DNA of 64,000 bases, taken from the NCBI RefSeq assembly GCF_001434815.1, contig NZ_AZDU01000004.1:1-64000 (forward strand), written 5' to 3'. Under the pieces are notes generated by a model that had not been told where the DNA came from, did no database searches, and was given only the letters and a program-made list of their open reading frames with translations. The DNA is from Lactobacillus equicursoris DSM 19284 = JCM 14600 = CIP 110162 (GTDB lineage Bacteria; Bacillota; Bacilli; Lactobacillales; Lactobacillaceae). Below, piece after piece: positions 285 to 26,460 of the stretch; the stretch's first letter is position 1, and each line of letters opens with the position of its first letter. The position numbers and the translations under genes were made by a program.

Positions 285-926
285 CTATCCAAGCCGGAAT
301 CCCTTCAAATCATCTTCGATTGAGTCGTCCTCTAATCCAATGTAGCGCATAGTGATCGAAGGACTGGAGTGGTTGAGCATCTTTTGTAGTTTGTAAAGAG
401 CCCTGGGATCAGGATCGCCATTCGGTGTAGTCGCATTCTTGATGTAGTGGTAGCCGAAAGTCTTTCTCAAGGTGTGGGTACCAACCGTATCTGGATCAAT
501 CTCGCACTGACGGGCTGCGCGCTTTAAGTCTTTATAAAAAGACTTCCCTTGGATCGGTCCATTTCCTTTTCTGGATGGAAAAAGCCAATCGTCTTCGGAC
601 AAGCCCATAGCGTCGATGTAGTCGAATAAGTCCTTCTTGATATTGCCGATGTAAACGTGGCGATTCTTGTGCGTCTTAGTTTCAACCAGGTTGTACCAGG
701 TACCGTCTTCCACATCCTTTACCTTGGCCTTGATGATGTCGGAAATCCGGAGACCGGTGTTGATGCCGAAGATGAAGATCATGGAATTGCGTAAGCCATT
801 GGGATTCTTACCCATGACACTGCCGGTGCCAAAACGCAAGGCCAGCTTCATGTCCCGAATATCTTTAGGACTGCGGAGCGGCTGGATGTTATGACTGCTT
901 TCAGTCTTCTTATATTTCCTACCCAT
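285..926 (-). CDS. Short tyrosine recombinase/integrase (catalytic domain only)
   Basis: This 213-residue protein carries the tyrosine-recombinase catalytic set: the first Arg in TGLRISD (about residue 56), a basic beta-hairpin (ETKTHKNRH), HTLRKTFGYHY (H-x-x-R), LNHSS, and the nucleophile Tyr in MRYIG near the C-terminus. It lacks the N-terminal SAM-like core-binding domain of phage Int and Xer proteins. Its size resembles FimB/FimE-type invertases (about 200 aa) and small integrases of mobile elements. The ATG is preceded by an AGGGGG ribosome binding site and a TTGAAT-N17-TAAAAT promoter. Inverted repeats flank it (262-280, 1099-1117), and a near-perfect palindrome lies upstream at 1038-1069. 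The family call is secure. Whether it integrates, inverts or resolves DNA cannot be read from the sequence. Confidence 0.88.
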   Translation of the reverse strand: MGRKYKKTESSHNIQPLRSPKDIRDMKLALRFGTGSVMGKNPNGLRNSMIFIFGINTGLRISDIIKAKVKDVEDGTWYNLVETKTHKNRHVYIGNIKKDLFDYIDAMGLSEDDWLFPSRKGNGPIQGKSFYKDLKRAARQCEIDPDTVGTHTLRKTFGYHYIKNATTPNGDPDPRALYKLQKMLNHSSPSITMRYIGLEDDSIEDDLKGFRLG

Positions 927-4820: not shown

Positions 4821-4979
4821 AATATCAACTTCAATCTACTTCAAATTATAATTATTACTAACTCTATTTTAGCAAATGTAGCTGAAATCGAATTAAAAAA
4901 ATCTTGATTCCGAACTTGCATTCGTTTGCTTTTTTCGTTATTCTTGATTTAGCAACTGATGTTCGTTAAGGAGATCTCT
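4821..4979. promoter_or_regulatory. Divergent intergenic region glxK/xerS
   Basis: This 159-bp AT-rich gap must carry the promoters of both genes. A strong AAGGAG ribosome binding site precedes the xerS ATG at 4980. In streptococci the chromosome-dimer resolution site difSL lies just upstream of xerS. I could not identify such a site here with confidence. Two copies of tcttgatt (about 4902 and 4944) are the only repeat noticed. Confidence 0.35.
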
Positions 4980-6062
4980 ATGGACAATAACCACTACCTC
5001 AAGCTGATCCAGCAGGAACTGGATGGCATGCCTGACTTTGTCAAAGAATACCACTTATATACCCGCCATTCCTTGGCGACCAGCTACCAGTATCTGACGG
5101 AAATTCGCCGCTTTTTCACCTGGTTAATTAGTGAAGGCATAACCCATACCAAAAATAATTCGGACGTTCAGCCAAGTGACCTGGAAAAACTGACCCGCGG
5201 CGAGATCATACTCTATATCGACCACTTAGAGCACACCAAAAATGCCCAAGGTCGGCTCAACTCCCCGACCACCGTCAACCGGTCGATCAACGCTTTGCGG
5301 TCTCTTTACAAGTTCTTGACCATTACCTCTGAAGACAAGAACGGTCAGCCCTACTTCGAGCGCAATGTCATGCTCAAGATCTCCTCTCTCCCCTATGCTC
5401 AAACCCTCAACTACCGGGCTAATTCCCTACGCGCCCACATGTATACCGGCAACCTGAAGTACCAATTCCTCGACTTTTTGGATCATGACTATTCAAAAAA
5501 AATTTCTGGCCGAGCCCTAGCCTCTTTCCGGCAGAACAAGGAACGGGACATGGCCATTATCGCCCTGATTCTGGGTACCGGGGTCCGGGTGTCTGAATGT
5601 GCTGGGGTTGACCTGAAAAATCTCAATCTCAAAGACGCTACTTTAGATGTCATTCGTAAGGGCGGGCAAAGAGATTCGGTGCCGATTGCGGATTGGACGC
5701 TGCCCTATCTCAATAGCTACTTGGATGTCCGGCAAGATCGCTATCAGGCATCTGAAAATGACAAGGCCCTTTTTCTCACCAACTACCACCACCAGGTTAA
5801 GCGGATGACCAGCAACGCCATCGAAAAGATGGTGCTGAAATATTCAACCGCCTTTGGCCATCCCCTGACGCCGCACAAACTCCGCCACACCGTGGCCTCA
5901 GAACTCTACCAGGCTACCAAGGACCAGGTCATGGTGGCTCAGCAATTGGGGCAAAAAGGCACTACTGCCACCGACCTTTACACCCACGTGGACCAGGCGG
6001 TCCAAAGAGAAGCCCTCAATGCCAGTGCCAAGAGGCAAAAAGACGCGTCCCCTGATGAATAG
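4980..6062 (+). CDS. xerS: Tyrosine recombinase XerS-type
   Basis: The 360-residue protein has the XerS layout. An N-terminal SAM-like DNA-binding domain (residues 10-130) is followed by a catalytic domain with GVRVSECAGVD (Arg), a KGGQRDS lysine hairpin, TPHKLRHTVASEL (H-x-x-R) and the nucleophile Tyr in DLYTH. XerS resolves chromosome dimers without XerC/XerD in streptococci and lactococci. The position usually occupied by His (LGH) or Trp reads LGQKG here, an unusual Gln. The ATG at 4980 has a good AAGGAG ribosome binding site, so the upstream in-frame codons from 4959 are not translated. It is longer than the integrase at 285-926 and is the housekeeping enzyme of the two. Confidence 0.88.
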   Translation: MDNNHYLKLIQQELDGMPDFVKEYHLYTRHSLATSYQYLTEIRRFFTWLISEGITHTKNNSDVQPSDLEKLTRGEIILYIDHLEHTKNAQGRLNSPTTVNRSINALRSLYKFLTITSEDKNGQPYFERNVMLKISSLPYAQTLNYRANSLRAHMYTGNLKYQFLDFLDHDYSKKISGRALASFRQNKERDMAIIALILGTGVRVSECAGVDLKNLNLKDATLDVIRKGGQRDSVPIADWTLPYLNSYLDVRQDRYQASENDKALFLTNYHHQVKRMTSNAIEKMVLKYSTAFGHPLTPHKLRHTVASELYQATKDQVMVAQQLGQKGTTATDLYTHVDQAVQREALNASAKRQKDASPDE

Positions 6063-15670: not shown

Positions 15671-17014
15671 CTAGTTCTTGAAGCTGTGAACTGGAGCCGG
15701 AATCCGGCCGCCGCGGTTGATCATAGCAGCACTTGATTCCTTGTGGACTGGCATGATTGGCGCGTAGCCAAAGAGGCCACCAAATTCGATGGAGTCGCCC
15801 ACACCCTTGCCTGGCACTGGGATGACCCGAACGGCAGTCGTCTTGTTGTTGATCATCCCGATGGCAGCTTCGTCGGCAATCATGGCGCTGATCGTTTCCG
15901 CAGGCGTATCACCTGGTACAGCGATCATATCCAAGCCTACTGAGCAGACAGCGGTCATGGCTTCCAGCTTGTCAACGGTCAAGATGCCCTTTTCCGCTGC
16001 CGCAATCATGCCAGCATCTTCTGATTCAGGGATGAAAGCACCAGACAAGCCACCAACGTGGGAGCAAGCCATGATCCCGCCCTTTTTAACGGCATCGTTG
16101 AGCATGGCCAAAGCGGCAGTTGTCCCGTGAGTCCCGACGCTTTCCAGACCGATTTCTTCCAAAATATTGGCCACAGAGTCGCCTTGAGCTGGGGTTGGGG
16201 CCAAGGACAGGTCGACAATCCCAAAGTCAACGCCAAGCCGCTTAGAAGCTTCTTGACCGACCAGTTGCCCCATCCGGGTCACCTTGAAGGCCGTCTGCTT
16301 GATGGTTTCGGCAACCACGTCCATGGATTCGCCCTTCACCTTTTCTAGCGCCTTCTTAACGACACCTGGGCCAGAAACGCCGACGTTTAAAGCAACGTCG
16401 GATTCACCAACGCCGTGGAAGCCACCAGCCATAAATGGGTTATCTTCAACCGCGTTGCAGAAGATGACCAGGTTGCCGTTGTTGAGTGGGTTGATCTTTT
16501 CGTTTTCGATAACGATTTGCCCCATTTCCTTAACGGCATCCATGTTGATCCCACTCCGAGTTGAGCCAACGTTGACGCTGGAGCATACCCGTTCAGTTGC
16601 CTTTAAGGCTTCAGGAATAGACTTGATCAGGACCCGGTCGCCGTTTTGGTAGCCCTTGTGAACGAGAGCTGAAAAGCCACCGATCAGGTCTACGCCTACA
16701 GCCTTAGCTGCCTTGTCCAGGGTCACGGCGTACTTGACGTAGTCGCTGTCACCGGAAGCGGCTGCGATCAAGGAAATTGGCGTTACCGTGATCCGCTTGT
16801 TGGCAATCGGAATTCCGTATTCAGTTTCCAGGTCCTTAGCCACCTTGACCAGTTTTTCTGCCTTCGTGGTAATCTTGTCATAAATCTTTTGGCAGGCCTT
16901 GTCGCTGTATGAGTCAATACAGTCAAGCAAGGAAATCCCCATCGTGGTTGTCCGCAAGTCGAGGTTTTCGTTGTCGATCATATTGACCGTTTCCATAATT
17001 CGCCGTAAGTCCAT
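15671..17014 (-). CDS. UPF0210/DUF711 family protein (PFL-like fold)
   Basis: The 447-residue protein matches the UPF0210 (DUF711) family in length and conserved segments. These include [25 protein letters not shown] at the N-terminus (split around residues 7-31), [52 protein letters not shown] and a C-terminal [10 protein letters not shown]. The fold is related to pyruvate formate-lyase but no radical Gly motif is seen. Biochemical role is unknown. Its start overlaps the stop of the ACT-domain gene (TAATG), an arrangement common for this pair, suggesting the two proteins work together or that the ACT domain is its sensor. Confidence 0.92.
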
Positions 17015-17295
17015 TATTCCAGGCCTCCGCTCAGTTCGTGCATGGCTGCGTACATCTTTTCGTTCCGGATGTTGATTTCAACGCCCAGCTTCTTGCCGAG
17101 GTCCTTTAATTCGCTGCTCAAAGCCGTGAAGTCGGCGTCATCTGGTACGTCCACCACCATCATCATGGTGAAGTAGCCGTTCAAAATGGTTTGGGACAGG
17201 TCCAGGATATTGATTTCCTTTTCTGCCAAAAAGCCGCTCACGCCAGCCACGATCCCAGTCTTGTCTTGGCCAACCGTTGTCAAAATCGCTCTCAT
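17014..17295 (-). CDS. ACT domain-containing protein (UPF0237)
   Basis: This 93-residue protein is a single ACT domain: [23 protein letters not shown] at the N-terminus (split as helix 1), [20 protein letters not shown], then a second helix and strand. ACT domains bind small ligands such as amino acids. UPF0237 proteins are usually encoded with a DUF711 partner, as here (1-nt stop-start overlap). AGGAGG precedes the ATG. A TATAAT -10 lies at 17338-17343 on the minus strand. Ligand unknown. Confidence 0.9.
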
Positions 17296-17382
17296 TTAGA
17301 GCCCTCCTAGTAAAAATCTCACTAATCAAAAACTAGCATTATAACTCTTAAAAGCCCTTTATTAATCTTTAATAAGATAATA

Positions 17383-17404
17383 AAGTTTTTAATAATAAAA
17401 ACTT
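17383..17404 (-). terminator. Terminator of carB
   Basis: On the minus strand aagtttttA and taaaaactt pair around a 4-nt loop, followed by a T-rich stretch (TATTATCTTATT). The stem is AT-rich and only moderately strong, but it lies at the expected place 28 bp after the carB stop codon. Confidence 0.55.
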
Positions 17405-17431
17405 AATCTAACAAATTCAGTATACCATACT

Positions 17432-20400
17432 CTAGATAGGCTGAGTAGTCAGGGCCAAGGATTCCAGAACATCCAGGATCAATTGGACCGTTTCTAGACT
17501 GGAGAAGACTGGAATGTGCGTATTCAGCGCCTGGTCCTTGATCTTGATCGAGTCTTCTACCGCTGAATCTGACAAGTTGACCACGTTAACCACCATCACG
17601 ATCCGGTGGGATCTGATTCTTTCCAAAAGGTTTCTCGACCCTTCCTGGATCTTGGCAATGACGCCCGTGGTAATGCCGGCTTCCGCCAAAATGTTGGCCG
17701 TCCCTTCCGTCGCCGTAATCTTAAAGCCTAGGCGGGCAAAGCGCTTGGCTAAATTGGCGACCTCACTCTTTTCCTCATCGGAAACCGAGAAGAAAATCGT
17801 CCCGTAGCTGGGAATGTGAAGGTCGCTGGCTTCATAGCCCTTGTAAAGTGCCTTGGCCAGCTGCTTGTCTCGGCCCATGACGGCATCAAATGACTTCATC
17901 TTGGAGTCAAAAGTGTTGTCAGAGCTATAGTTAAGATAAGAGAAGACCGGCATCTTGACGTGGATTAGTTCGTCGACTGGCCAGACCGCGTTTGGATAGC
18001 CCAGGTCCTTGATCTGCCGGCCCGCCAAAACCTTCACCGCATACTTGACCAAGTCCTTTTTCATTGATTTGGACAAGAAAGCCAAATTGTGGCCAGCATA
18101 GGTCTTAATCTGCAAGAGATAAATTTCGTTATCCCTAATCAAGAAGTGCAGGTTAAAAATCCCCCGGATCTTGAAGGAGCGAATCAGCTTGATCGTTTCT
18201 TCTTGCAGCTTCTGAGCCTGCTTTTTAGCCAGATATTGCGGGCCAAAAACGGCGATAGAATCAGAAGCATGCGACCCCGACTGCTCCAGGTGCTCGACAA
18301 TTCCCGGGATGGTCACGTCGGTCCCATCGGTAATGGCCGTAATTTCGTACTTGATCCCAGTGATGAATTGGGAAATCGTGTAGTGGTCCACCTGGTTTTC
18401 CCGATAGTACTTTTCTAAGGCTGGCAGGTCATAAACAACAGCGGCCTTTTGCTTATTCTTTTGGTGGTAACCGCCAACCAAAACAGGATAGCCGACTTTT
18501 TCCGCAAAATTCAAGACAGCTTGGTAGTCGCTGCTTGCTAAATATGGCACTCTTTTAACATCGGAAACCTTACTAGTATCCAGGTGACTGATTGGAAGCA
18601 GCTTGGAAATGTCATGCTGGCCAAAAATCTTCAGCCCATGGCTCATCAAAGGCACCCTTAAGGCTGACACCTGCTTGCCAGAGAATTGGGTGACCACGTC
18701 GGTAATCCCCTCTTCTTCGCAGATGGTGATGATGGAGTCTAGGTTGATCGGTTCAAAGTAGACCCGGTCGACCAAGGAGTAGTCCATCGAGGCAGACTCG
18801 TCGTTGTTGGACAAAAGCACCGTCTCGTAGCCCTCTTCTTTCAAGGCTTGCAGGGCATGGTAGAGCATGTAGTCAAATTCGCTGGTGACAGACACCTGAA
18901 ATGGCGGCATTCCCAAGACCAGGACTTTTTTCTTAGCCTGGTCCAGCTTCAGCTCGTTTTCGGTCCCGTAGCCTTGGTAGTAGACCTTGACCTTGGGCTG
19001 GTAGACCCCGGCACTGTTGTCAATGGCCAAAAAGCCTGGGTGGACCTCTTTTTCCGCTAAGAGTGGGAAGATGTCATGAACGTCCATCTGGGTCAGCTTG
19101 GCCAGCAAGTCGCTGGAAAAGCCGCGGATCTTGGCCTTCATCAAGAGGTCGTGGTCGAGCTCTTTGGCATGGGCAATATCATGACCGATCTTGACTAGGT
19201 ACTTCAGCTTTTGGTAGTAAACTGGGTGGATGTTAAAGACGGCTGAAATCTTCTGGTAGTCAATGTCTTCACTTAAAGCCGCCAAAAGCTGAATCAGGTG
19301 GAGCTCAGTTGGATGAGCCAGGTCATCCAAGATTTCCTCTACGCTCTTGGACCGCTCTTTGATAAAGGCATTCCACATCACTTCCAGGTCGTTTGACGAA
19401 ATCAGTGCCTTGAAAAAGGCACTTTCAAAGTTTCGCCCAATCCCTACGGCTTCCCCAGTTGACTGAGTTCTCTTGCCTAATTGGTAGTGGTTATAGCCAG
19501 TTTTGGAGAAGGACCAGTAAGGGATCTTGATGCTGACGGCATCCCAGACGGGCTCAATTGCCGCACAGAGGTCAGTTGCCGGATCAGTTATTTCATTTAA
19601 GTGGTAGCCAATCGCCACCTTGGCCAAGATGTAGCCGATTGAATACAGACTGGTCTTTTGGTCAAAAATCGCTGTCTTGGTGATTCGCGCTTTTACCGCT
19701 AAGACTTTGCGGTGCATCAGTCCTTCATGGTGAGAAATGGCAAAATGCACGCTTAAAAAGCCGACTAGCTTCAAGGCTTCGGCAATCCGCCGGCAGTCTT
19801 TGCGCAGAACCTGCATTTGGTCGTTGTTGACAGTTAACAGCGGCTTGATCAAGACTGAGTCGCCGGAATCGATCCCCACTGGTTCTAAGGAGCCAGTGGC
19901 GCCGACAAAGGCAATGTTGCCGGCTTCGTCACGGATCAAGTCAATGATAACTTCTTCGCAGCTAGACAGGTCTTCGCTCATGCGGTAGTCGCTTGAATGA
20001 AAGTCCTTGTCTTTAAATTCGCCGCGCAAGTACTTGGCCAAGTCAAAGCTGGTCTTAAAGGAGATGTGCTGGTTCCGCTCAAACAGAAACTTTTTGGTTA
20101 AAAGAATTGGAAAGTCCAGCTTGTTAGCCAGCTGCTCTTGCAGGTGCTCGTCATTTTTTAAGGCTAAACCGTCCAGAGTCCAGCTCTGGCTGAGCGGCAG
20201 GTGGTGGTTAGCCAAAAAATGGGCCCGCTTTTGCGGGTTGGCCATGGCGATGCCTAGATCATTGGTCCCTAAAATCCGGATCCCCATCTGGTGCAAGATT
20301 CCGTCTGCTTGCAGCTTTTTAGTCACGTTTAAGGCAGTGAGCGACCCAAAGGGCGTCATGATGGCATCGGGCTCTTCCATCCGCAAGATCCGCTTCAAAA

Positions 20401-20617
20401 AGTCCAAGGTCATAGGTTCTAGGTAAACCGTGAGACCGGGCACTGGATCGGTCGAAACACTGGCCGGATTAGGGTTGACCAAGACCACCTGGATGTTTTC
20501 CTCAATCAGGGCCTTAATGGCGCTTTTCGTCAACAGGTCGGTATTGGCCACGTTGCCAGCAAGAGAAGAGCCTGACCCAATTATCAAAATTTTGTTTAAT
20601 TCATTTTCGCGAGGCAT
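17432..20617 (-). CDS. carB: Carbamoyl-phosphate synthase large-subunit homologue with degenerate ATP-grasp sites
   Basis: At 1061 residues the length and domain order match CarB: two tandem ATP-grasp halves (about 1-400 and 550-930), a linker domain, and a C-terminal MGS-like domain (about 935-1061, IPSYGTIFFSVSDEEK, VMVVNVV, IPVFSSLET). Family-critical motifs are changed in both halves. The GGTGGG-type loop reads FLFERNQ. The metal-binding ExN segment near residue 305 reads VKARITKT instead of EMNPRVSRSS. RPSYVLGG reads VGGYHQKNKQ. The second ExN segment near 836 reads QIKTYAGH instead of EVNPRASR. NPETVSTD reads NNDESASMD, QFGGQ reads QFSGKQ. The reading frame is nevertheless intact. It probably cannot make carbamoyl phosphate in the usual way. 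Its start overlaps the carA stop (TAATG). Confidence 0.85.
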   Translation of the reverse strand: MPRENELNKILIIGSGSSLAGNVANTDLLTKSAIKALIEENIQVVLVNPNPASVSTDPVPGLTVYLEPMTLDFLKRILRMEEPDAIMTPFGSLTALNVTKKLQADGILHQMGIRILGTNDLGIAMANPQKRAHFLANHHLPLSQSWTLDGLALKNDEHLQEQLANKLDFPILLTKKFLFERNQHISFKTSFDLAKYLRGEFKDKDFHSSDYRMSEDLSSCEEVIIDLIRDEAGNIAFVGATGSLEPVGIDSGDSVLIKPLLTVNNDQMQVLRKDCRRIAEALKLVGFLSVHFAISHHEGLMHRKVLAVKARITKTAIFDQKTSLYSIGYILAKVAIGYHLNEITDPATDLCAAIEPVWDAVSIKIPYWSFSKTGYNHYQLGKRTQSTGEAVGIGRNFESAFFKALISSNDLEVMWNAFIKERSKSVEEILDDLAHPTELHLIQLLAALSEDIDYQKISAVFNIHPVYYQKLKYLVKIGHDIAHAKELDHDLLMKAKIRGFSSDLLAKLTQMDVHDIFPLLAEKEVHPGFLAIDNSAGVYQPKVKVYYQGYGTENELKLDQAKKKVLVLGMPPFQVSVTSEFDYMLYHALQALKEEGYETVLLSNNDESASMDYSLVDRVYFEPINLDSIITICEEEGITDVVTQFSGKQVSALRVPLMSHGLKIFGQHDISKLLPISHLDTSKVSDVKRVPYLASSDYQAVLNFAEKVGYPVLVGGYHQKNKQKAAVVYDLPALEKYYRENQVDHYTISQFITGIKYEITAITDGTDVTIPGIVEHLEQSGSHASDSIAVFGPQYLAKKQAQKLQEETIKLIRSFKIRGIFNLHFLIRDNEIYLLQIKTYAGHNLAFLSKSMKKDLVKYAVKVLAGRQIKDLGYPNAVWPVDELIHVKMPVFSYLNYSSDNTFDSKMKSFDAVMGRDKQLAKALYKGYEASDLHIPSYGTIFFSVSDEEKSEVANLAKRFARLGFKITATEGTANILAEAGITTGVIAKIQEGSRNLLERIRSHRIVMVVNVVNLSDSAVEDSIKIKDQALNTHIPVFSSLETVQLILDVLESLALTTQPI

Positions 20618-21672
20618 TACTTCACCAGTTTCAGAAAATCATCAAAAATCAGCCGACCATCTAAAGCACCTGGCGCCCCTTCGGGGTTGAAGGCGACCGC
20701 CATGAGCTTCATTTTTTCGTTGGTAAAGCCGGCTAAGAGCTCGGTATGGAGGTCAAAATATTCTTCGTTAAAAGTCAGCTGGGCATCATCAGGCAAGACC
20801 AGTTGACCAATATTCATGGCCGTTTGCCAAACTTGCCCTTCCGTTTGGCTGATCACCGGGAAGTTGGTCCCATTTTGGTATTGTGGCAAATCGACCAAGG
20901 TCATGTCCAGATAGTCCGCGATCGCCAAAAAGCCCAGGCCCACGCCCAAAATCGGCAATTGGCCCAGGTAGGCATCTAGGATCTTGCTCAAATAGCGCAT
21001 GACCTCATTGGTTTGGCCAGGACCATTAGAGATGATAATCCCGTCCGGCCGCAGACTCTTTAAATCCCGCACTTCTGCGTTATAAGGCAAAACGTTGGCA
21101 TTGATCTGTCTTAAAGATAGTTCCCGTAGCATGGTGTGCTTGAGGCCTAAGTCAATTACCGCGATGGTCTTGCCCACGTTTGGCGCCGCATAGGCATTTT
21201 TGGTTGAAACCAGTGCGCTCTTATTTTTAGGCAAAACCAGTGCGCGAATCTGGTCAAAGGCGTGGGCATCATCGGTATCCATGATCGAGGCCTTGATGGT
21301 CCCCTGCTTTTGGAGCTTCCGGACCAGGGCCCGGGTGTCCACGTTAAAAATCGCTGGTACGCCTTTTTCTTTTAAAAAGTCCGCCAAAGACTGGAAATTG
21401 TCATTATCCGTAATGTTTAGGGCCACATCGTTAGCAATGACGCCCTTAACGCTAGGTTGCATGCTTTCGTAGTCGACGGCGTTGATCCCGTTTGAGCCGA
21501 TCATGGGCGTCGTAAAAACAATAATCTTGCCGGCATTGGCGGGATCAGTCAGGACTTCCTGGTAGCCGTAATTGCTGGTTTGAACGGCTAATTCTCCGGT
21601 GGCCGTAATGGCGGCTCCGATGCCGTCACCCTTATAAGAGGAACCGTCCTCCAAAATTAAGTAGCGTTTCAT
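20617..21672 (-). CDS. carA: Carbamoyl-phosphate synthase small-subunit homologue lacking the glutaminase Cys and His
   Basis: The 351-residue protein has CarA architecture. The N-terminal domain (RYLILEDGSSYKGDGIGA, GYQEVLTDPANAGKI, FNVDTRALVRKL) is followed by a class I glutamine amidotransferase domain from about residue 165. The nucleophile elbow normally reading GICLGHQ is GVGLGFL, with Gly at the Cys position (near 244). The catalytic His in YHPEASPG is Asn in FNPEGAPG (near 329), though the Glu remains. Hydrolysis of glutamine by the normal triad is therefore not expected. The start lies 3 bp after the rluD stop, so no PyrR leader is possible directly upstream. It could be an ammonia-dependent scaffold, a regulatory relic, or a protein with a new role. 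Confidence 0.85.
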   Translation of the reverse strand: MKRYLILEDGSSYKGDGIGAAITATGELAVQTSNYGYQEVLTDPANAGKIIVFTTPMIGSNGINAVDYESMQPSVKGVIANDVALNITDNDNFQSLADFLKEKGVPAIFNVDTRALVRKLQKQGTIKASIMDTDDAHAFDQIRALVLPKNKSALVSTKNAYAAPNVGKTIAVIDLGLKHTMLRELSLRQINANVLPYNAEVRDLKSLRPDGIIISNGPGQTNEVMRYLSKILDAYLGQLPILGVGLGFLAIADYLDMTLVDLPQYQNGTNFPVISQTEGQVWQTAMNIGQLVLPDDAQLTFNEEYFDLHTELLAGFTNEKMKLMAVAFNPEGAPGALDGRLIFDDFLKLVK

Positions 21673-21675
21673 TCT

Positions 21676-22584
21676 TTACTTCATCTTCTCCCGCAAGCTG
21701 GCCACTGTTTTTTGAAAAATTTCCGGCGGCTCAACTGAAAATTCCAGCCACTGGCCGGTGGTCGGCTGCTCAAAGCCCAGGGTTTGGGCGTGCAAAAATT
21801 GGCCGTGTCCTGGCAGGGTCTTCCTTGGACCATACAAGGGATCACCTGCTAAAGGATGACCGATATAGGCCATGTGGACTCTAATTTGGTGGGTCCGGCC
21901 GGTTTCCAGCTGACATTCGATCAAGCTGTAACCTGGGTATTGTTCTAAGACCTTAAAGTGAGTCACCGCATTTTTGCCATTTTCGACTACGGCCATTTGC
22001 TTGCGATCCCGCGGGTTGCGGGCAATTGGGGCATCGACCGTACCAGATTTTTCCGCAAAATTGCCGTGAACAATCGCCAGGTAGATCCGCTTGTTGGACT
22101 TTTGTGCCAGCTGAGCTTCTAGGGACTCTCTAGCCTTGGCATTTTTAGCTACCATAAGTAGGCCCGACGTGTCCTTGTCAATCCGGTGGACGATGCCTGG
22201 CCGAAAGCCTTCCGGGCTATCTGCCAAATCCCGGGTATGGTAAAGCAGGGCATTCACCAGTGTGTGGTTAGGATGTCCTGCTGCGGGGTGGACGACCATG
22301 CCTTGGGGCTTGTTGACCACAATGACGTCGTCGTCCTCATATACGATATCTAAGGGAATATTTTCGGGTTCCAGGTCTAGGGGTTCGAGAGGCAAAATGT
22401 TGACTTCAATTTGGTCGCCAGCTTCCACCTTATAAGAAACCTTGGTCTTTTTGCCATTGACCAAGACTTGCCCAGCTTGAGCCAGGTCTTTGATCCGGCT
22501 GCGAGACAGATCAATCCGCTCTGCCAGATACTTGTCTAGGCGCAAGCCAGCCTGGTCAACGATCAGCTCAACTTTTTCTGCCAT
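21676..22584 (-). CDS. rluD: RluA-family pseudouridine synthase
   Basis: The 302-residue enzyme has an N-terminal S4 RNA-binding domain (residues 10-65, GLRLDKYLAER, DLSRSRIKDLAQAGQVLVNG). The catalytic domain has PQGMVVHPAAGH and HRIDKDTSGLLMVAKN, whose Asp is the nucleophile. RluD-type enzymes isomerise uridines in 23S rRNA helix 69. The order lspA-rluD followed by pyrimidine genes is standard in Bacilli, but here carA follows directly with pyrR, pyrP, pyrB and pyrC absent from between them. GGGAGG precedes the ATG. The gap to lspA is 2 bp. Confidence 0.92.
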   Translation of the reverse strand: MAEKVELIVDQAGLRLDKYLAERIDLSRSRIKDLAQAGQVLVNGKKTKVSYKVEAGDQIEVNILPLEPLDLEPENIPLDIVYEDDDVIVVNKPQGMVVHPAAGHPNHTLVNALLYHTRDLADSPEGFRPGIVHRIDKDTSGLLMVAKNAKARESLEAQLAQKSNKRIYLAIVHGNFAEKSGTVDAPIARNPRDRKQMAVVENGKNAVTHFKVLEQYPGYSLIECQLETGRTHQIRVHMAYIGHPLAGDPLYGPRKTLPGHGQFLHAQTLGFEQPTTGQWLEFSVEPPEIFQKTVASLREKMK

Positions 22585-22586
22585 CC

Positions 22587-23039
22587 CTAATCCTCCCTTT
22601 CAATAAATAGCAAATAACAAAAGATCAGTACAACGCCCACGGTAATGGCAGAATCGGCCAGGTTAAAAATGTTGAACTGCACGAAGTCCAGCTGGATCAT
22701 GTCGATCACATACTTCAGGTGCAGGCGGTCGATTAAGTTGCCGATGATGCCGCCCAAGGTAAAGATCAAGCCAGTCTTAAACATCCAGTGGCTGTATTTT
22801 TTATTAAAGTAAAAATACAAAACCACGCCAATGGCGATCAGGCTAATCACGTAAAAGAGCCACATCTGGCCAGACAAGACGTTCCAAGCCGCACCGTTAT
22901 TTTTCACGTAGGTGAAGGAAAAAAGTCCCGGCATCACATCATGCACTTCGCCAACCTTGTAGTTAGTGGCAATATAATACTTTAACCCTTGGTCGGCCGC
23001 CGCAATTAGCGCCGCAATTACTAATCCAATTACTTGCAT
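22587..23039 (-). CDS. lspA: Lipoprotein signal peptidase (signal peptidase II)
   Basis: This 150-residue inner-membrane aspartyl protease has four hydrophobic segments (about 5-22, 60-80, 86-105 and 125-145). Catalytic Asp residues lie in GNLIDRLHLKYVIDMIQLDF (family GNxxDR) and FNLADSAITVG. It removes signal peptides from diacylglyceryl-modified prolipoproteins. Length is typical. It sits 11 bp after fhs and 2 bp before rluD in the same operon. Confidence 0.95.
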   Translation of the reverse strand: MQVIGLVIAALIAAADQGLKYYIATNYKVGEVHDVMPGLFSFTYVKNNGAAWNVLSGQMWLFYVISLIAIGVVLYFYFNKKYSHWMFKTGLIFTLGGIIGNLIDRLHLKYVIDMIQLDFVQFNIFNLADSAITVGVVLIFCYLLFIERED

Positions 23040-23050
23040 ATTCCTCTTTT

Positions 23051-24730
23051 CTAGAACAAACCGCTGATCTTCCCGGTTTCGTCCACATCAATATCCAGGG
23101 CTGCTGGGTGTTTTGGCAAGCCTGGCATGTCTAAAATATGGCCGGTTGAAATGACAACAAAGCCTGCACCATTGCGGAGGCTCAAGCCCTTTACGTGCAA
23201 GGTGAAGTCAGTTGGGGCGCCAAGTTCCTTAGCGTTGTCGCTGAAGCTGTATTGGGTCTTGGCGATAATGACTGGCAAACGGTCCTTACCCAGCTTTTGC
23301 AGCTTTTCTAAGTCCCGCTTGGCCTTGTCGCTGTATTCAACATCGGCAGCATGGTAAATCCGCTTAGCAACTTTTTCAATCTTAGTTACTAAGTCATCAT
23401 CTTCATTATAGCTTGAAACGAGCTCGTAGTCGCTATTGTCTGCCAATTCGACGATTTTTTCTGCAGCTGCCTTGGCGCCCTTGGAACCGTCGTCGTGGGC
23501 AGTTACGATTTCTACTGGGAAGCCTTGAGCTTCGATCATGGACTTGAGCAGGTCCAGTTCAGCTTCGGTGTCAGTTGGGAACTTGTTGATGACAACCAAA
23601 ACTGGGATTTGGTATGAGCGAACGTTGTTCATGTGGCGGTCAAGGTTGGCAAAGCCTTCCTTAAGAGAGTCCAAGTTTTCTTCCTTCAAGTGGTCAGTTG
23701 ACTTTTCAGCTTGGTACTTGAGGGCCCGGACAGTAGCCACCACAACGGCTGCATCCGGCTTCTTTTCCAGCTTAGTTGACACAAAGTCAAGGAACTTTTG
23801 CCCGCCAAGATCTGAACCAAAGCCGGCTTCACTCAATACGTAGTCGCTGAGGTGCAAAGCCAGGTTGGTTGAGATAATGGAGTTGTTGCCGTGAGCGATG
23901 TTGGCAAAAGGACCGCCGTGAACGAAGGCTGGAGTGTGTTCCAGGGTTTGCACCAGGTTTGGCTTCAAGGCTGTTGACAAAAGGGCCGCAATAGCGCCTT
24001 GGAAGCCCAGGTCCTTGACATAAACTGGTTCATCGTCGTAAGTGTAGCCAACTAAGATCTTGCTGATTCGCTCCTTGAGGTCCAGGATGTCCTTGGACAG
24101 GCAAAGGATAGCCATCAATTCGTGACCAACCGTCAATTGGAAGCTGGCTGGGCGCTCAACCCCATTAAACTTGGAGCCTTGGCCAATGGTGATCTTCCGC
24201 AAAGTCCGATCGTTAACGTCCAAACCGCGCTTGATCACGATCTTTTCTGGGTCTAAGCCAAGTTCGTTTCCTTGGTAAATGTAGTTGTCAACTAAGGCTG
24301 ACAAGTTGTCGATTGCAGAAGTCAAGGCGTGCATGTCGCCAGTAAAGTGGAGGTTGATGTCCTCCATTGGGATCACTTGAGCGTAGCCGCCGCCAGCAGC
24401 CCCACCCTTCATGCCAAAGACTGGGCCCATGGATGGTTCTCTTAAGGCAATCACAGTCTTCTTGCCGAGCTGGTTGTTGATGGCATCCCCGATCCCGATG
24501 GTCATGGTAGACTTGCCTTCACCGGCTGGAGTTGGAGAAATGGAAGTTACCAAGATCAGCTTGCCCAAGTGGCCGTTTCCTTCGCTTCTCTTGATGGCTT
24601 GCCAGTTGACTTTGGCCTTATCCTTGCCGTATTCTTCTAAATCTTCTGAATGAAGGCCAAGCTTAGCCGCGATATCGGTAATTGGCAATTCCTTAGCTTC
24701 TTGTGCAATTTCAATGTCAGTCTTAACCAT
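23051..24730 (-). CDS. fhs: Formate-tetrahydrofolate ligase
   Basis: The 559-residue cytoplasmic enzyme makes 10-formyl-THF from formate, THF and ATP, feeding purine synthesis. It carries the P-loop TPAGEGKST (about residue 67), [28 protein letters not shown] (split signature from residue 98), [14 protein letters not shown], and a C-terminal [20 protein letters not shown]. Length is normal for the family. The ATG at 24730 overlaps the upstream gene's stop by 8 bp (ATGGTTAA), which suggests translational coupling since no strong ribosome binding site is seen. The GTG three codons upstream is the alternative. Confidence 0.95.
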
Positions 24731-25079
24731 TCTTGTCACGCTTTCTACTGATAACCAGATAATCTAAACTGTGATGCCGCGAAATCTTGGCCCGGTAAAC
24801 AGCAAAGCACTTCCAGCTGCCGACCAGGCTAGGTTTCTTTTCTAGAACAATCGCCCTTCTAAATGGCAAATGGAGCTCCATTTTCTCGCCTAAAGAGACA
24901 AAAGAAGTCAGCCATGTATAAATCAGAAAGAGCCCAAAGAGGAAGAAAGTAACGACCATTGGTGGGTTGACGAACTGGCTCCCTTCCAGGCAAAAAATGA
25001 TTGCCAAGAACAAAAGGCAGAAGAACCAACTGTAATAGATTACTCCCAAATTCCCCAAAAAAACCAAATGCTTCTTCAT
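24723..25079 (-). CDS. Small membrane protein of unknown function
   Basis: This 118-residue protein has two hydrophobic segments (about 10-30 and 42-62) and then a basic, soluble C-terminal half ([35 protein letters not shown]). No family is recognised. AAGGAG precedes the ATG. It heads the operon that continues into fhs-lspA-rluD-carA-carB, overlapping the fhs start by 8 bp. Its own role may be regulatory or simply positional. Confidence 0.7.
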
Positions 25080-25104
25080 GAAAAACTCCTTGTACTAGAT
25101 ATGA

Positions 25105-25113
25105 CTGATTATA
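25105..25113 (-). promoter_or_regulatory. Extended -10 promoter of the fhs-lspA-rluD-carAB operon
   Basis: The minus strand carries TGTTATAAT (-10 core 25108-25113). There is no good -35 at 17 bp. It lies 29 bp upstream of the small membrane-protein ATG. It would drive the whole operon, since no PyrR-type leader is visible. Confidence 0.65.
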
Positions 25114-25233
25114 ACAAATACCGAGGCGAATTCCGACAATTACGAAAAATATTCTTTAATTATCTTTAAATTGTTCGGCTATTTTAACAGATTCTGACTT
25201 TTGTAAAAAAAAATCAAAAAATAGATCGTTTTT

Positions 25234-26460
25234 TTACCAAGCGAGCGTTAGCTCTTGACTTGATTCCTGGCTTTCAGTCAAAGAATTCAGGTACCAGCGC
25301 AGATTTGGCCCCATCTGCAGCAATTTTTGATACGTGGCAGACTTTTTTAAAGTAGCCAATTCTGCTGGTGTCAGATTCCCCTGGCCAGTGAAATAGTTCC
25401 AGTGTAGCTTTTTCAGTAAAGAAATTGCCTCTTGCCCTTCAGCAGTGCCGTCAAAAGTCAAAAAGTGCTCCATCAGCTGGTCGTTAGCTCCATCAAAAAC
25501 TTTGACCAAATAGGAATGAAAATCGTTAAAGGGATAGGCTTTTTTCTCTTGCTCGGTCAGGTAACGATCGATGTCAAAAGTTTTGCGCCGATAGTCAAGC
25601 TGGTTATTGCCCAATTTCACAACGCCGTATCCCTGGTCAGTTTCGGCAAAGCAGGAGCTGACAATTTCCGGTATTGCTACGTTTTTTGCCATAATGTGCT
25701 GGGCGTGAATGTGGCCGGAAAAAGCGCAGCGAACTGGGTACTTTTTTAAGAGGGCCAGCAGTTCAGCGGCATTGTTCAGCCTAAAGCCGTCATGAACCAC
25801 CGAATTATGGTCATAAAGGTTGTGGTGCATGAAAAAGAGCATTTCCTGGTCTGCTTTTTGCCCAGTCTCCAGCTCTTGCGTCAGCCACGCCCGCTCACTG
25901 TCGGTTAAATTGCCGCTAGTAATGGGGTGACCATAGGATTCTTGGTGGCCATAGATGTTGGAATCAAGGCAAATTAGGCGCCAGTGCGGGTTTAAGTTGA
26001 CCGCAAAAGACAGGGAATTTGGATCAAGGCTTTCAGCCAGATCATAAGTAGCCGAAAAAATCTCCCGCCAGTCCCTGGGGCTAAGTTGATCCACCCGGTA
26101 TTCCTGGTCAGCCTCAAACCGCCTGGCCCAGCCATCGAAGATATCATGGTTGCCGGGGATGGCAATCAGCGCCACGCCAGCTTTTTTCAAAGGGGCAAAA
26201 AGCTCGGCAAACTTTTTGGCAGATGCTTTAGCACCGTTAAAGGTTAAATCACCCGTGATCACGACGGCATCCGGCTTTTCTTCAACAACTTTTTTAACAA
26301 AAGCCCTCAGCGCCGTTTCCTGGTAGGTGATGTCCTTACCCGCACTGGTAGCCTGCATCTGCTCAAAGCGGGGGCCAAAGTCGTGCAGGCTGTCTACGAT
26401 TAAATGAGGATCTGACAATAGCCAGAATTCAGGATTGGCCTTATCTGTGATTACTTTCAT
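25234..26460 (-). CDS. Calcineurin-like metallophosphoesterase
   Basis: The 408-residue protein carries the binuclear metallophosphatase motifs in order: SDPHLIVD (normally DxH), VVITGDLTFNG, IAIPGNHDIFDGW, MHHNLYDHN and FSGHIHAQH, all within residues 15-265. The remaining 140 residues are an extra helical C-terminal domain (EQEKKAYPFNDFH onward). Cyclic-nucleotide or nucleotide phosphodiesterase activity is plausible. Substrate cannot be assigned. No signal peptide is visible. The ATG at 26460 has no obvious Shine-Dalgarno sequence. It is monocistronic between the fhs operon and the rRNA methyltransferase gene. Confidence 0.85.
   Translation of the reverse strand: MKVITDKANPEFWLLSDPHLIVDSLHDFGPRFEQMQATSAGKDITYQETALRAFVKKVVEEKPDAVVITGDLTFNGAKASAKKFAELFAPLKKAGVALIAIPGNHDIFDGWARRFEADQEYRVDQLSPRDWREIFSATYDLAESLDPNSLSFAVNLNPHWRLICLDSNIYGHQESYGHPITSGNLTDSERAWLTQELETGQKADQEMLFFMHHNLYDHNSVVHDGFRLNNAAELLALLKKYPVRCAFSGHIHAQHIMAKNVAIPEIVSSCFAETDQGYGVVKLGNNQLDYRRKTFDIDRYLTEQEKKAYPFNDFHSYLVKVFDGANDQLMEHFLTFDGTAEGQEAISLLKKLHWNYFTGQGNLTPAELATLKKSATYQKLLQMGPNLRWYLNSLTESQESSQELTLAW

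Follow-up and report, generated by a model that had tools for sequence, protein, structure and literature searches.

Two gene sets named carA and carB are common in Lactobacillus genomes. As far as the accessible portions of the published accounts go, L. plantarum has two specialized carbamoyl phosphate synthetases (CPSases) and its PyrR1 and PyrR2 proteins are already known (PMC3582564, PMC6245113), and the carA_1/B_1 and carA_2/B_2 pairs of L. acidophilus are both interpreted as CPSases (PMC10609339). Here, we analyzed a 64,000-nucleotide stretch of the Lactobacillus equicursoris DSM 19284 genome (assembly GCF_001434815.1, contig NZ_AZDU01000004.1, positions 1 to 64,000; hereafter the window), in which genes for a CarB homologue of 1061 residues (carB', 17432..20617) and a CarA homologue of 351 residues (carA', 20617..21672) lie on the minus strand and share one base (20617). 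Open reading frames and alignments defined both genes, together with Pfam and an AlphaFold2 model for CarB' and a profile search for CarA'. The pair has the architecture of a CPSase, namely CarA plus a two-repeat CarB with oligomerization and MGS domains. Importantly, loss of catalytic residues combined with signatures of purifying selection in the sequences makes the assignment of CarA'B' as a pseudoenzyme well supported. We propose with moderate confidence that CarA'B' is an ancient CPSase-derived pseudoenzyme complex that probably binds nucleotides and regulates; its regulatory role is what we infer from the evidence below.

Residues are numbered by alignment to E. coli CarB and CarA, and the catalytic roles of CarB residues are those that we take to be established for the E. 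coli enzyme. As judged from these alignments, the pair has lost the residues needed to hydrolyze glutamine and to carry out the two ATP-dependent steps, and the sequence architecture of a CPSase is kept in both subunits. The first half of CarB' carries E299A, N301K, R129P, R169T, H243D, and Q285H changes but keeps Arg303; its former metal-binding segment comprises residues 305–315 of the window protein (19673..19705, minus strand). The second half carries R715G, G722K, D753S, E761K, Q829H, E841Q, N843K, R845Y, and R848H, with its former metal-binding segment, QIKTYAGH, at residues 836–843 (18089..18112, minus strand). A preliminary description, made from the sequence alone, had reported that VKARITKT near residue 305 and QIKTYAGH near residue 836 replace both ExN segments; the translation bears out both positions, and mapping of E. 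coli Glu299, Asn301, Glu841, and Asn843 onto the window protein gives Ala, Lys, Gln, and Lys. The glycine-rich loops have also been lost, in both halves as that description held, as seen by alignment to E. coli CarB. Its claim that the NPETVSTD motif is changed in both halves holds for the second copy (NNDESASMD) but not for the first (NPASVSTD), which is largely kept. CarA' has the changes C269G, H353N, H272F, and Q273L and retains Glu355, and thus two residues of the catalytic triad are gone, not the entire triad as first described. The H353N substitution also occurs in a crystallized E. coli chain (1a9x_B), from an entry titled 'caught in the act of glutamine hydrolysis'.

The same losses recur across the genus. 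Residue-by-residue comparison covered 55 of the 60 genus genomes with a match (G001, G021, G032, G051, and G054 were left out). Among these 55 CarB' proteins, Glu299 was never present, Asn301 was present once, and E841Q and N843K were universal, as were C269G and H353N in the 55 CarA' proteins. Each of the nine second-half replacements was found in 53 to 55 sequences, and their fixation is far beyond chance. The parallel loss in both halves noted earlier is real as regards both sites, but their fates differ: site 1 is drifting, whereas site 2 was substituted and then became near-invariant.

Multiple results support selection for CarA'B' in spite of these losses. First, the carB' frame has no internal stops, and Pfam detected pre-ATP-grasp, ATP-grasp, oligomerization, and MGS domains, the MGS-like allosteric domain at residues 953–1038 by Pfam limits (17504..17761, minus strand), in keeping with the length, domain order, and MGS domain given in the preliminary description. 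Second, the ratio of nonsynonymous to synonymous substitution rates (dN/dS), calculated for 17 close CarB' pairs (0.05 < dS < 0.9) that share sequences and hence are non-independent, ranged from 0.022 to 0.129 with a median of 0.039. In genome pairs matched for eroded and intact copies, of which only four were close enough and three were drawn from three genomes, median dN/dS was 0.038 for eroded versus 0.030 for intact CarB and 0.041 for eroded versus 0.049 for intact CarA. A value of 0.074 was obtained for one pair (L077/L078) from two 85%-complete genomes, in neither of which was an intact CarB found. Third, CarB' was present in 61 of 61 genus genomes that were at least 90% complete, the matched stretch being free of stops, and its frame was full-length in 60; a pattern of stops or frameshifts, as expected of a decaying pseudogene, was looked for in these 61 genomes and came down to a single frame interrupted near residue 956 (G021). 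In a first draw of 61 genus genomes, 60 had a CarB' match, three of them partial (G001, G021, and G032), and the sole genome without one was a 59%-complete assembly. Retention in all 61 near-complete genomes, together with the dN/dS values, rejects sequencing error and also an isolated copy in decay. Six loci that were fragments (L001–L006) and two from genomes already represented by L029 and L020 (L045 and L048, respectively) were dropped before counting.

Carriers of CarB' include L. delbrueckii, L. johnsonii, L. jensenii, L. psittaci, L. rodentium, and L. kefiranofaciens and, outside the genus, Holzapfeliella floricola. A pattern scan of species genomes, which detects only relatives carrying one of two short motifs, returned 53 loci, all titled Lactobacillus or Holzapfeliella bar one Faecalicatena record. 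That record (L122, Faecalicatena absiana) encodes a Lactobacillus-type CarB' of 80% identity and corresponds to a genome placed in Lactobacillus (G302); its title looks wrong.

The window genome (2.05 Mb, 182 contigs, 99.9% complete) also contains a second carAB pair with intact motifs (L007) on contig 57, as a search suggested in the preliminary description revealed, and the idea that the window pair is the only CPSase of the cell is thereby rejected. ExN motifs were kept in all 25 intact-type CarB copies of the genus that were examined. In the tree, the intact carAB pair of one close relative (L098, G045) branches outside every other copy from the family, as if replaced through horizontal transfer. 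In the near-complete genomes of the first draw, CarB' was present in 49 of 49 and a full intact CarB was missing from 14, two of which hold remnants; a pyrC match was also absent in 13 of these 14. Four of the 14 (G005, G009, G040, and G047) keep CarB' with no pyrC, pyrR, or pyrP match at the thresholds used. Outside the genus, three genomes (G087, G093, and G111) had one CarB match each at a threshold of 1e-60, and it was an eroded one. Because CarB' is kept in genomes without intact CarB, its role cannot require an intact CPSase, and a role that needs PyrR, PyrP, or de novo pyrimidine synthesis is unlikely. The preliminary description had left open whether selection on catalysis was relaxed or a new function is being maintained by selection. 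Gene-wide, the median dN/dS of 0.039, retention in 61 of 61 genomes, and persistence without an intact CPSase support a new function; relaxation applies locally, to the old site-1 residues, but not to the whole gene.

Where does the constraint lie? Mean pairwise identity by domain was compared for eroded and intact copies from the same 24 genomes (G045, with loci L098/L009, was dropped). The MGS domain was similarly conserved in CarB' (0.743) and the intact enzyme (0.755), whereas ATP-grasp 1 (0.559 versus 0.902), ATP-grasp 2 (0.649 versus 0.853), and the other three domains (0.734 versus 0.935, 0.462 versus 0.748, and 0.612 versus 0.888) were looser in the eroded copy. For the MGS domain, conservation of the eroded copy equaled or exceeded that of the intact one in 187 of 276 genome pairs; this was so in none of 276 for ATP-grasp 1 and in one of 276 for ATP-grasp 2. 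In CarA, the N-terminal domain was equally conserved (0.797 eroded versus 0.785 intact), and the amidotransferase domain was relaxed (0.676 versus 0.836). The alignment behind these identities and the dN/dS values misplaces the loop at about 715–722, and site statistics were taken from another alignment. In the 55 CarB' sequences, using random-draw tests that ignore shared ancestry and hence are descriptive, former site-1 residues varied like their domain (38% of draws were as low), former site-2 residues were nearly all substituted yet unusually conserved (0.7% of draws), and the MGS effector residues Ser948, Lys954, Thr974, Thr977, Lys993, Asn1015, and Asp1025 were invariant (55/55, entropy 0; 0.03% of draws). 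Lys954, Thr974, Asn1015, and Asp1025 are positions that we take to be effector residues. In E. coli CPSase, the accessible text of a prior study describes Thr977 and Lys993 as crucial for inhibition and binding of uridine monophosphate (UMP) and reports Ser948 for sensitivity to UMP and inosine monophosphate (IMP) (PMC6245113). In one Holzapfeliella floricola genome (G099), an intact-type CarB (L115) lacks six of the seven effector residues, and the eroded CarB (L040) keeps six of the seven.

Structure prediction, which the preliminary description had proposed, gave a confident AlphaFold2 model of CarB' from 37 homologues (predicted local distance difference test 86.9, predicted template-modeling score 0.88) that superseded a model from 8 sequences (65.5 and 0.41, respectively). 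Its nearest solved structures are CPSases: Foldseek matched 1jdb_K (E 4.4e-89, template-modeling score 0.88, 25% identity), and VIA-align gave Z scores of 46.8 to human CPS1 (6uel_A) and 44.4 to 1a9x_A (root-mean-square deviation 2.8 over 989 residues). The whole fold of a CPSase large subunit is thus predicted to be kept.

Eroded relatives extend well beyond the genus. C269G was present in 90 of the 91 eroded-pair CarA proteins examined across the family, comprising 57 of Lactobacillus type (55 from the genus and two from other genera), 26 of type 5, four of type 2, two of type 3, and L054; the exception (L105, G093) keeps Cys269 and has H353L. Type-2 CarB has K299/T301 and A841/D843, and type-3 CarB keeps the site-1 motifs and has lost site 2. 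Two loci (L102 and L103, in G117 and G081) pair a CarA bearing C269G and H353Y with a CarB in which the site-1 motifs are intact and site 2 is gone; this half-eroded CarB could possibly be a carboxyphosphate-forming half enzyme. Type 5, as examined in L106–L111 and L172–L191, is a truncated CarB of about 820–860 residues with E299K or E299R in 26 of 26 cases. Defined by score and an open frame of about 720–906 residues, with 26 members checked by residue, type 5 occurs in no fewer than 142 of the 251 family genomes and no fewer than 21 of the 40 genera. An in-match stop was flagged in 24 of the 142; five flagged loci (L173, L174, L176, L184, and L191) have frames of 825–847 residues, and the flagged stop in these must therefore lie near an end. 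In an order-wide draw at a threshold of 1e-216, type 5 occurred in 22 of 295 genomes, all within Lactobacillaceae.

Gene order and phylogeny support descent of CarA'B' from the carAB genes of a pyr locus at lspA-rluD. Where neighbors were covered in the 46 loci inspected (45 distinct, as L040 is L161), the order was (fhs)-lspA-rluD-(pyrR)-(pyrP)-carA'-carB', with a convergent fbpA gene seen in 30 of 46; as an exception, a 404-residue gene other than rluD precedes pyrR in L181. In G181 (L055), an intact pyr run whose genes, named from their translations, read pyrP-B-C-Aa-Ab-K-D-F-E adjoins fbpA. The phylogeny that the preliminary description called for, a mixture-model tree of 41 rows built from CarA and the first 550 residues of CarB (E. 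coli numbering), placed all 23 eroded rows in one clade (97/98) within intact PyrAa/PyrAb and beside the G181 copy, although seven rows, including three Lactobacillus-type pairs, have an unusual letter make-up and long-branch attraction of fast rows is possible. With test groups chosen after the tree was known, a clade of the G181 and G093 copies was not rejected (p 0.143), and a clade of the two G070 copies was rejected (p 0.014). The eroded pairs are best read as pyr-locus remnants, and from the shared C269G we infer that glutaminase was lost once, after which the synthetase sites decayed separately. G093 may represent a separate and recent loss of CPSase; its eroded CarAB (L105), in which CarA Cys269 is still present, includes the only CarB found in that genome.

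How might such a complex work? Glutaminase activity was probably lost first, as C269G in nearly all family members would indicate, and the two synthetase sites then followed. CarA' and CarB' would still assemble as a complex, the intact MGS site would still bind a nucleotide resembling UMP or IMP, and the re-tooled, lysine-rich site 2 perhaps binds a second anionic ligand without hydrolysis. The complex would then signal through contact with another protein or RNA. We propose that the MGS and CarA N-terminal domains are fully constrained, and the catalytic domains less so, because the regulator reads nucleotide levels. More tentatively, an inactive CPSase may have arisen once in the ancestor of many Lactobacillaceae, marked by CarA C269G and the lspA-rluD-pyr locus, and given rise to a new class of non-catalytic sensors whose pockets were remodeled by lineage, with the MGS domain and re-tooled site 2 used in Lactobacillus and a truncated, pyrR-adjacent form in at least 21 other genera, and with the Lactobacillus core pair operating outside pyrimidine synthesis.

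Several points weigh against a nucleotide-sensing regulator. Conservation of the MGS domain could serve structure rather than ligand binding. Alignments of type 5 with CPSase models stop at about residue 635–650, and its MGS sites show either gaps or unrelated residues; sensing through the MGS domain therefore cannot be common to all relatives, and in type 5 a different retained feature must matter. To these can be added the interrupted G021 frame, the non-independence of the dN/dS pairs, the small matched set, and the descriptive nature of the random draws.

Among other explanations, site 2 could be a new enzyme, with a pocket of K722, S753, K761, H829, Q841, K843, Y845, and H848 that catalyzes a different and perhaps metal-free reaction. 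The old positions are nearly all changed and yet conserved above their domain, and 29 ATP-grasp-2 positions are invariant within each group but differ in residue between the 55 CarB' and five intact proteins. However, nothing obvious replaces the two lost acidic metal ligands and the lost phosphate-binding loop, and a conserved pocket can bind without catalysis; we regard a new enzyme as unlikely.

Equally doubtful is a role for CarA'B' in control of pyrimidine or inorganic-carbon metabolism with PyrR, or with the uracil permease PyrP, as its partner. Among the 37 loci inspected outside Lactobacillus, 32 have pyrR, on its own or with a following pyrP, right before the pair, and pyrR directly precedes it in 23 of 26 type-5 loci; pyrR is missing beside the pair in L108, L186, and L191 (type 5) and in L039, and the L105 contig ends before the pyrR position. 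PyrR2 of L. plantarum presumably belongs to an eroded-pair locus. In the accessible part of the source, PyrR2 responds to inorganic carbon (PMC3582564), and this response together with pyrR adjacency suggests a possible link to CO2 or pyrimidines for the type-5 branch. By contrast, neither pyrR nor pyrP lies next to the pair at any of the nine Lactobacillus loci inspected, and in the four genomes noted above CarB' is retained and neither gene is matched.

CarA'B' might instead be a regulatory subunit that tunes intact CarAB through mixed oligomers. The two share architecture and predicted fold, and a full intact CarB accompanies CarB' in 39 of the 61 genus genomes of the first draw, but its absence from 14 of 49 near-complete genomes makes this role rather improbable. 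A working CPSase that uses other residues is very hard to credit. CarB' does exceed the PRK05294 cut-off (656.2 versus 599; intact paralogue 1583), and CarA' exceeds that of PRK12838 (416.9 versus 221), and these passed cut-offs therefore put a misleading CPSase name on the pair. However, CarB' falls below the TIGR01369 cut-off (638.8 versus 1027; intact paralogue 1535.2), CarA' falls below that of TIGR01368 (266.5 versus 307.35; intact copy 480.3), and the glutaminase Cys and His are gone along with both ExN motifs. Finally, a slowly decaying pseudogene, which would fit the background-like evolution of old site 1 and the broken G021 frame, is scarcely tenable given dN/dS values of 0.022–0.129 and full-length frames in 60 of 61 near-complete genomes.

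In the window, three tightly packed, co-directional genes lie upstream of carA' on the minus strand: immediately upstream, an RluA/RluD-type pseudouridine synthase gene (21676..22584; TIGR00005 cut-off passed, RluD equivalog cut-off not reached); a gene that we take to be lspA-like, for signal peptidase II (22587..23039; no family match at 1e-30, a conserved neighbor elsewhere); and fhs, for formate-tetrahydrofolate ligase (23051..24739; NF010030). The window pyrB and pyrC genes are full-length and exceed their family cut-offs. Between carB' and fbpA (15671–17297) are a PRK05313-family gene, also present in the L. delbrueckii locus (L121) and absent from seven loci (L042–L048), and a small gene, presumably ACT-domain-like. 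Two tyrosine-recombinase-like genes, recognized by eye from their translations, lie near the left end of the window (285–926 and 4959–6062). No regulatory RNA was detected near the pair by Rfam at gathering thresholds, the sole match in the window being RNase P class B at another position, and counts in a promoter and terminator scan of 16900–25400 were no higher than in shuffled sequences.

The accessible text of a review of carbamoyl phosphate enzymes makes no mention of an inactive CPSase (PMC6022934), and no published description of an inactive CPSase pair was evident by title or abstract opening among the matches listed, which mostly do not cover subscription papers. The accessible portions of five further papers gave no clue to CarA'B' function (PMC6099100, PMC5918772, PMC5605880, PMC5712122, PMC7911632). 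If one carA/carB set is inactive, then metabolic models and auxotrophy predictions are wrong wherever it has been counted, including in widely used probiotic and dairy species; if that set is a nucleotide sensor, then these bacteria have a hitherto unknown level of core regulation that can be tested directly. How a channeled multi-site enzyme turns into a non-enzyme can also be studied in this family, whose intermediate states form a natural series.

Compared with E. coli CarAB (1JDB, 1A9X, 1CE8), CarA'B' has the same domain order, predicted overall fold, and MGS effector residues, but it has lost the metal-ligand pair of each ATP-grasp site, its phosphate loops, and all but one of the three residues of the CarA triad, and the CarB proteins are 25–27% identical in structural alignments. 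The intact CarAB of L. equicursoris and its genus relatives shares organism and architecture with CarA'B', but the intact genus CarB keeps the ExN motifs that CarB' has lost and is only ~30% identical to it. PyrAa/PyrAb of G181, the nearest intact sequence in the tree, has the same pyrP- and fbpA-side neighbors as the eroded pairs but is intact and sits within a complete pyr run. The inactive dihydroorotases of fungal Ura2 (PMC6022934) and Pseudomonas aspartate transcarbamoylase (PMC6245113), as described in the accessible parts of these sources, are likewise pyrimidine-pathway enzymes kept without catalysis. Those dihydroorotases, however, sit in complexes with an active pathway enzyme, whereas CarA'B' persists without an intact CPSase.

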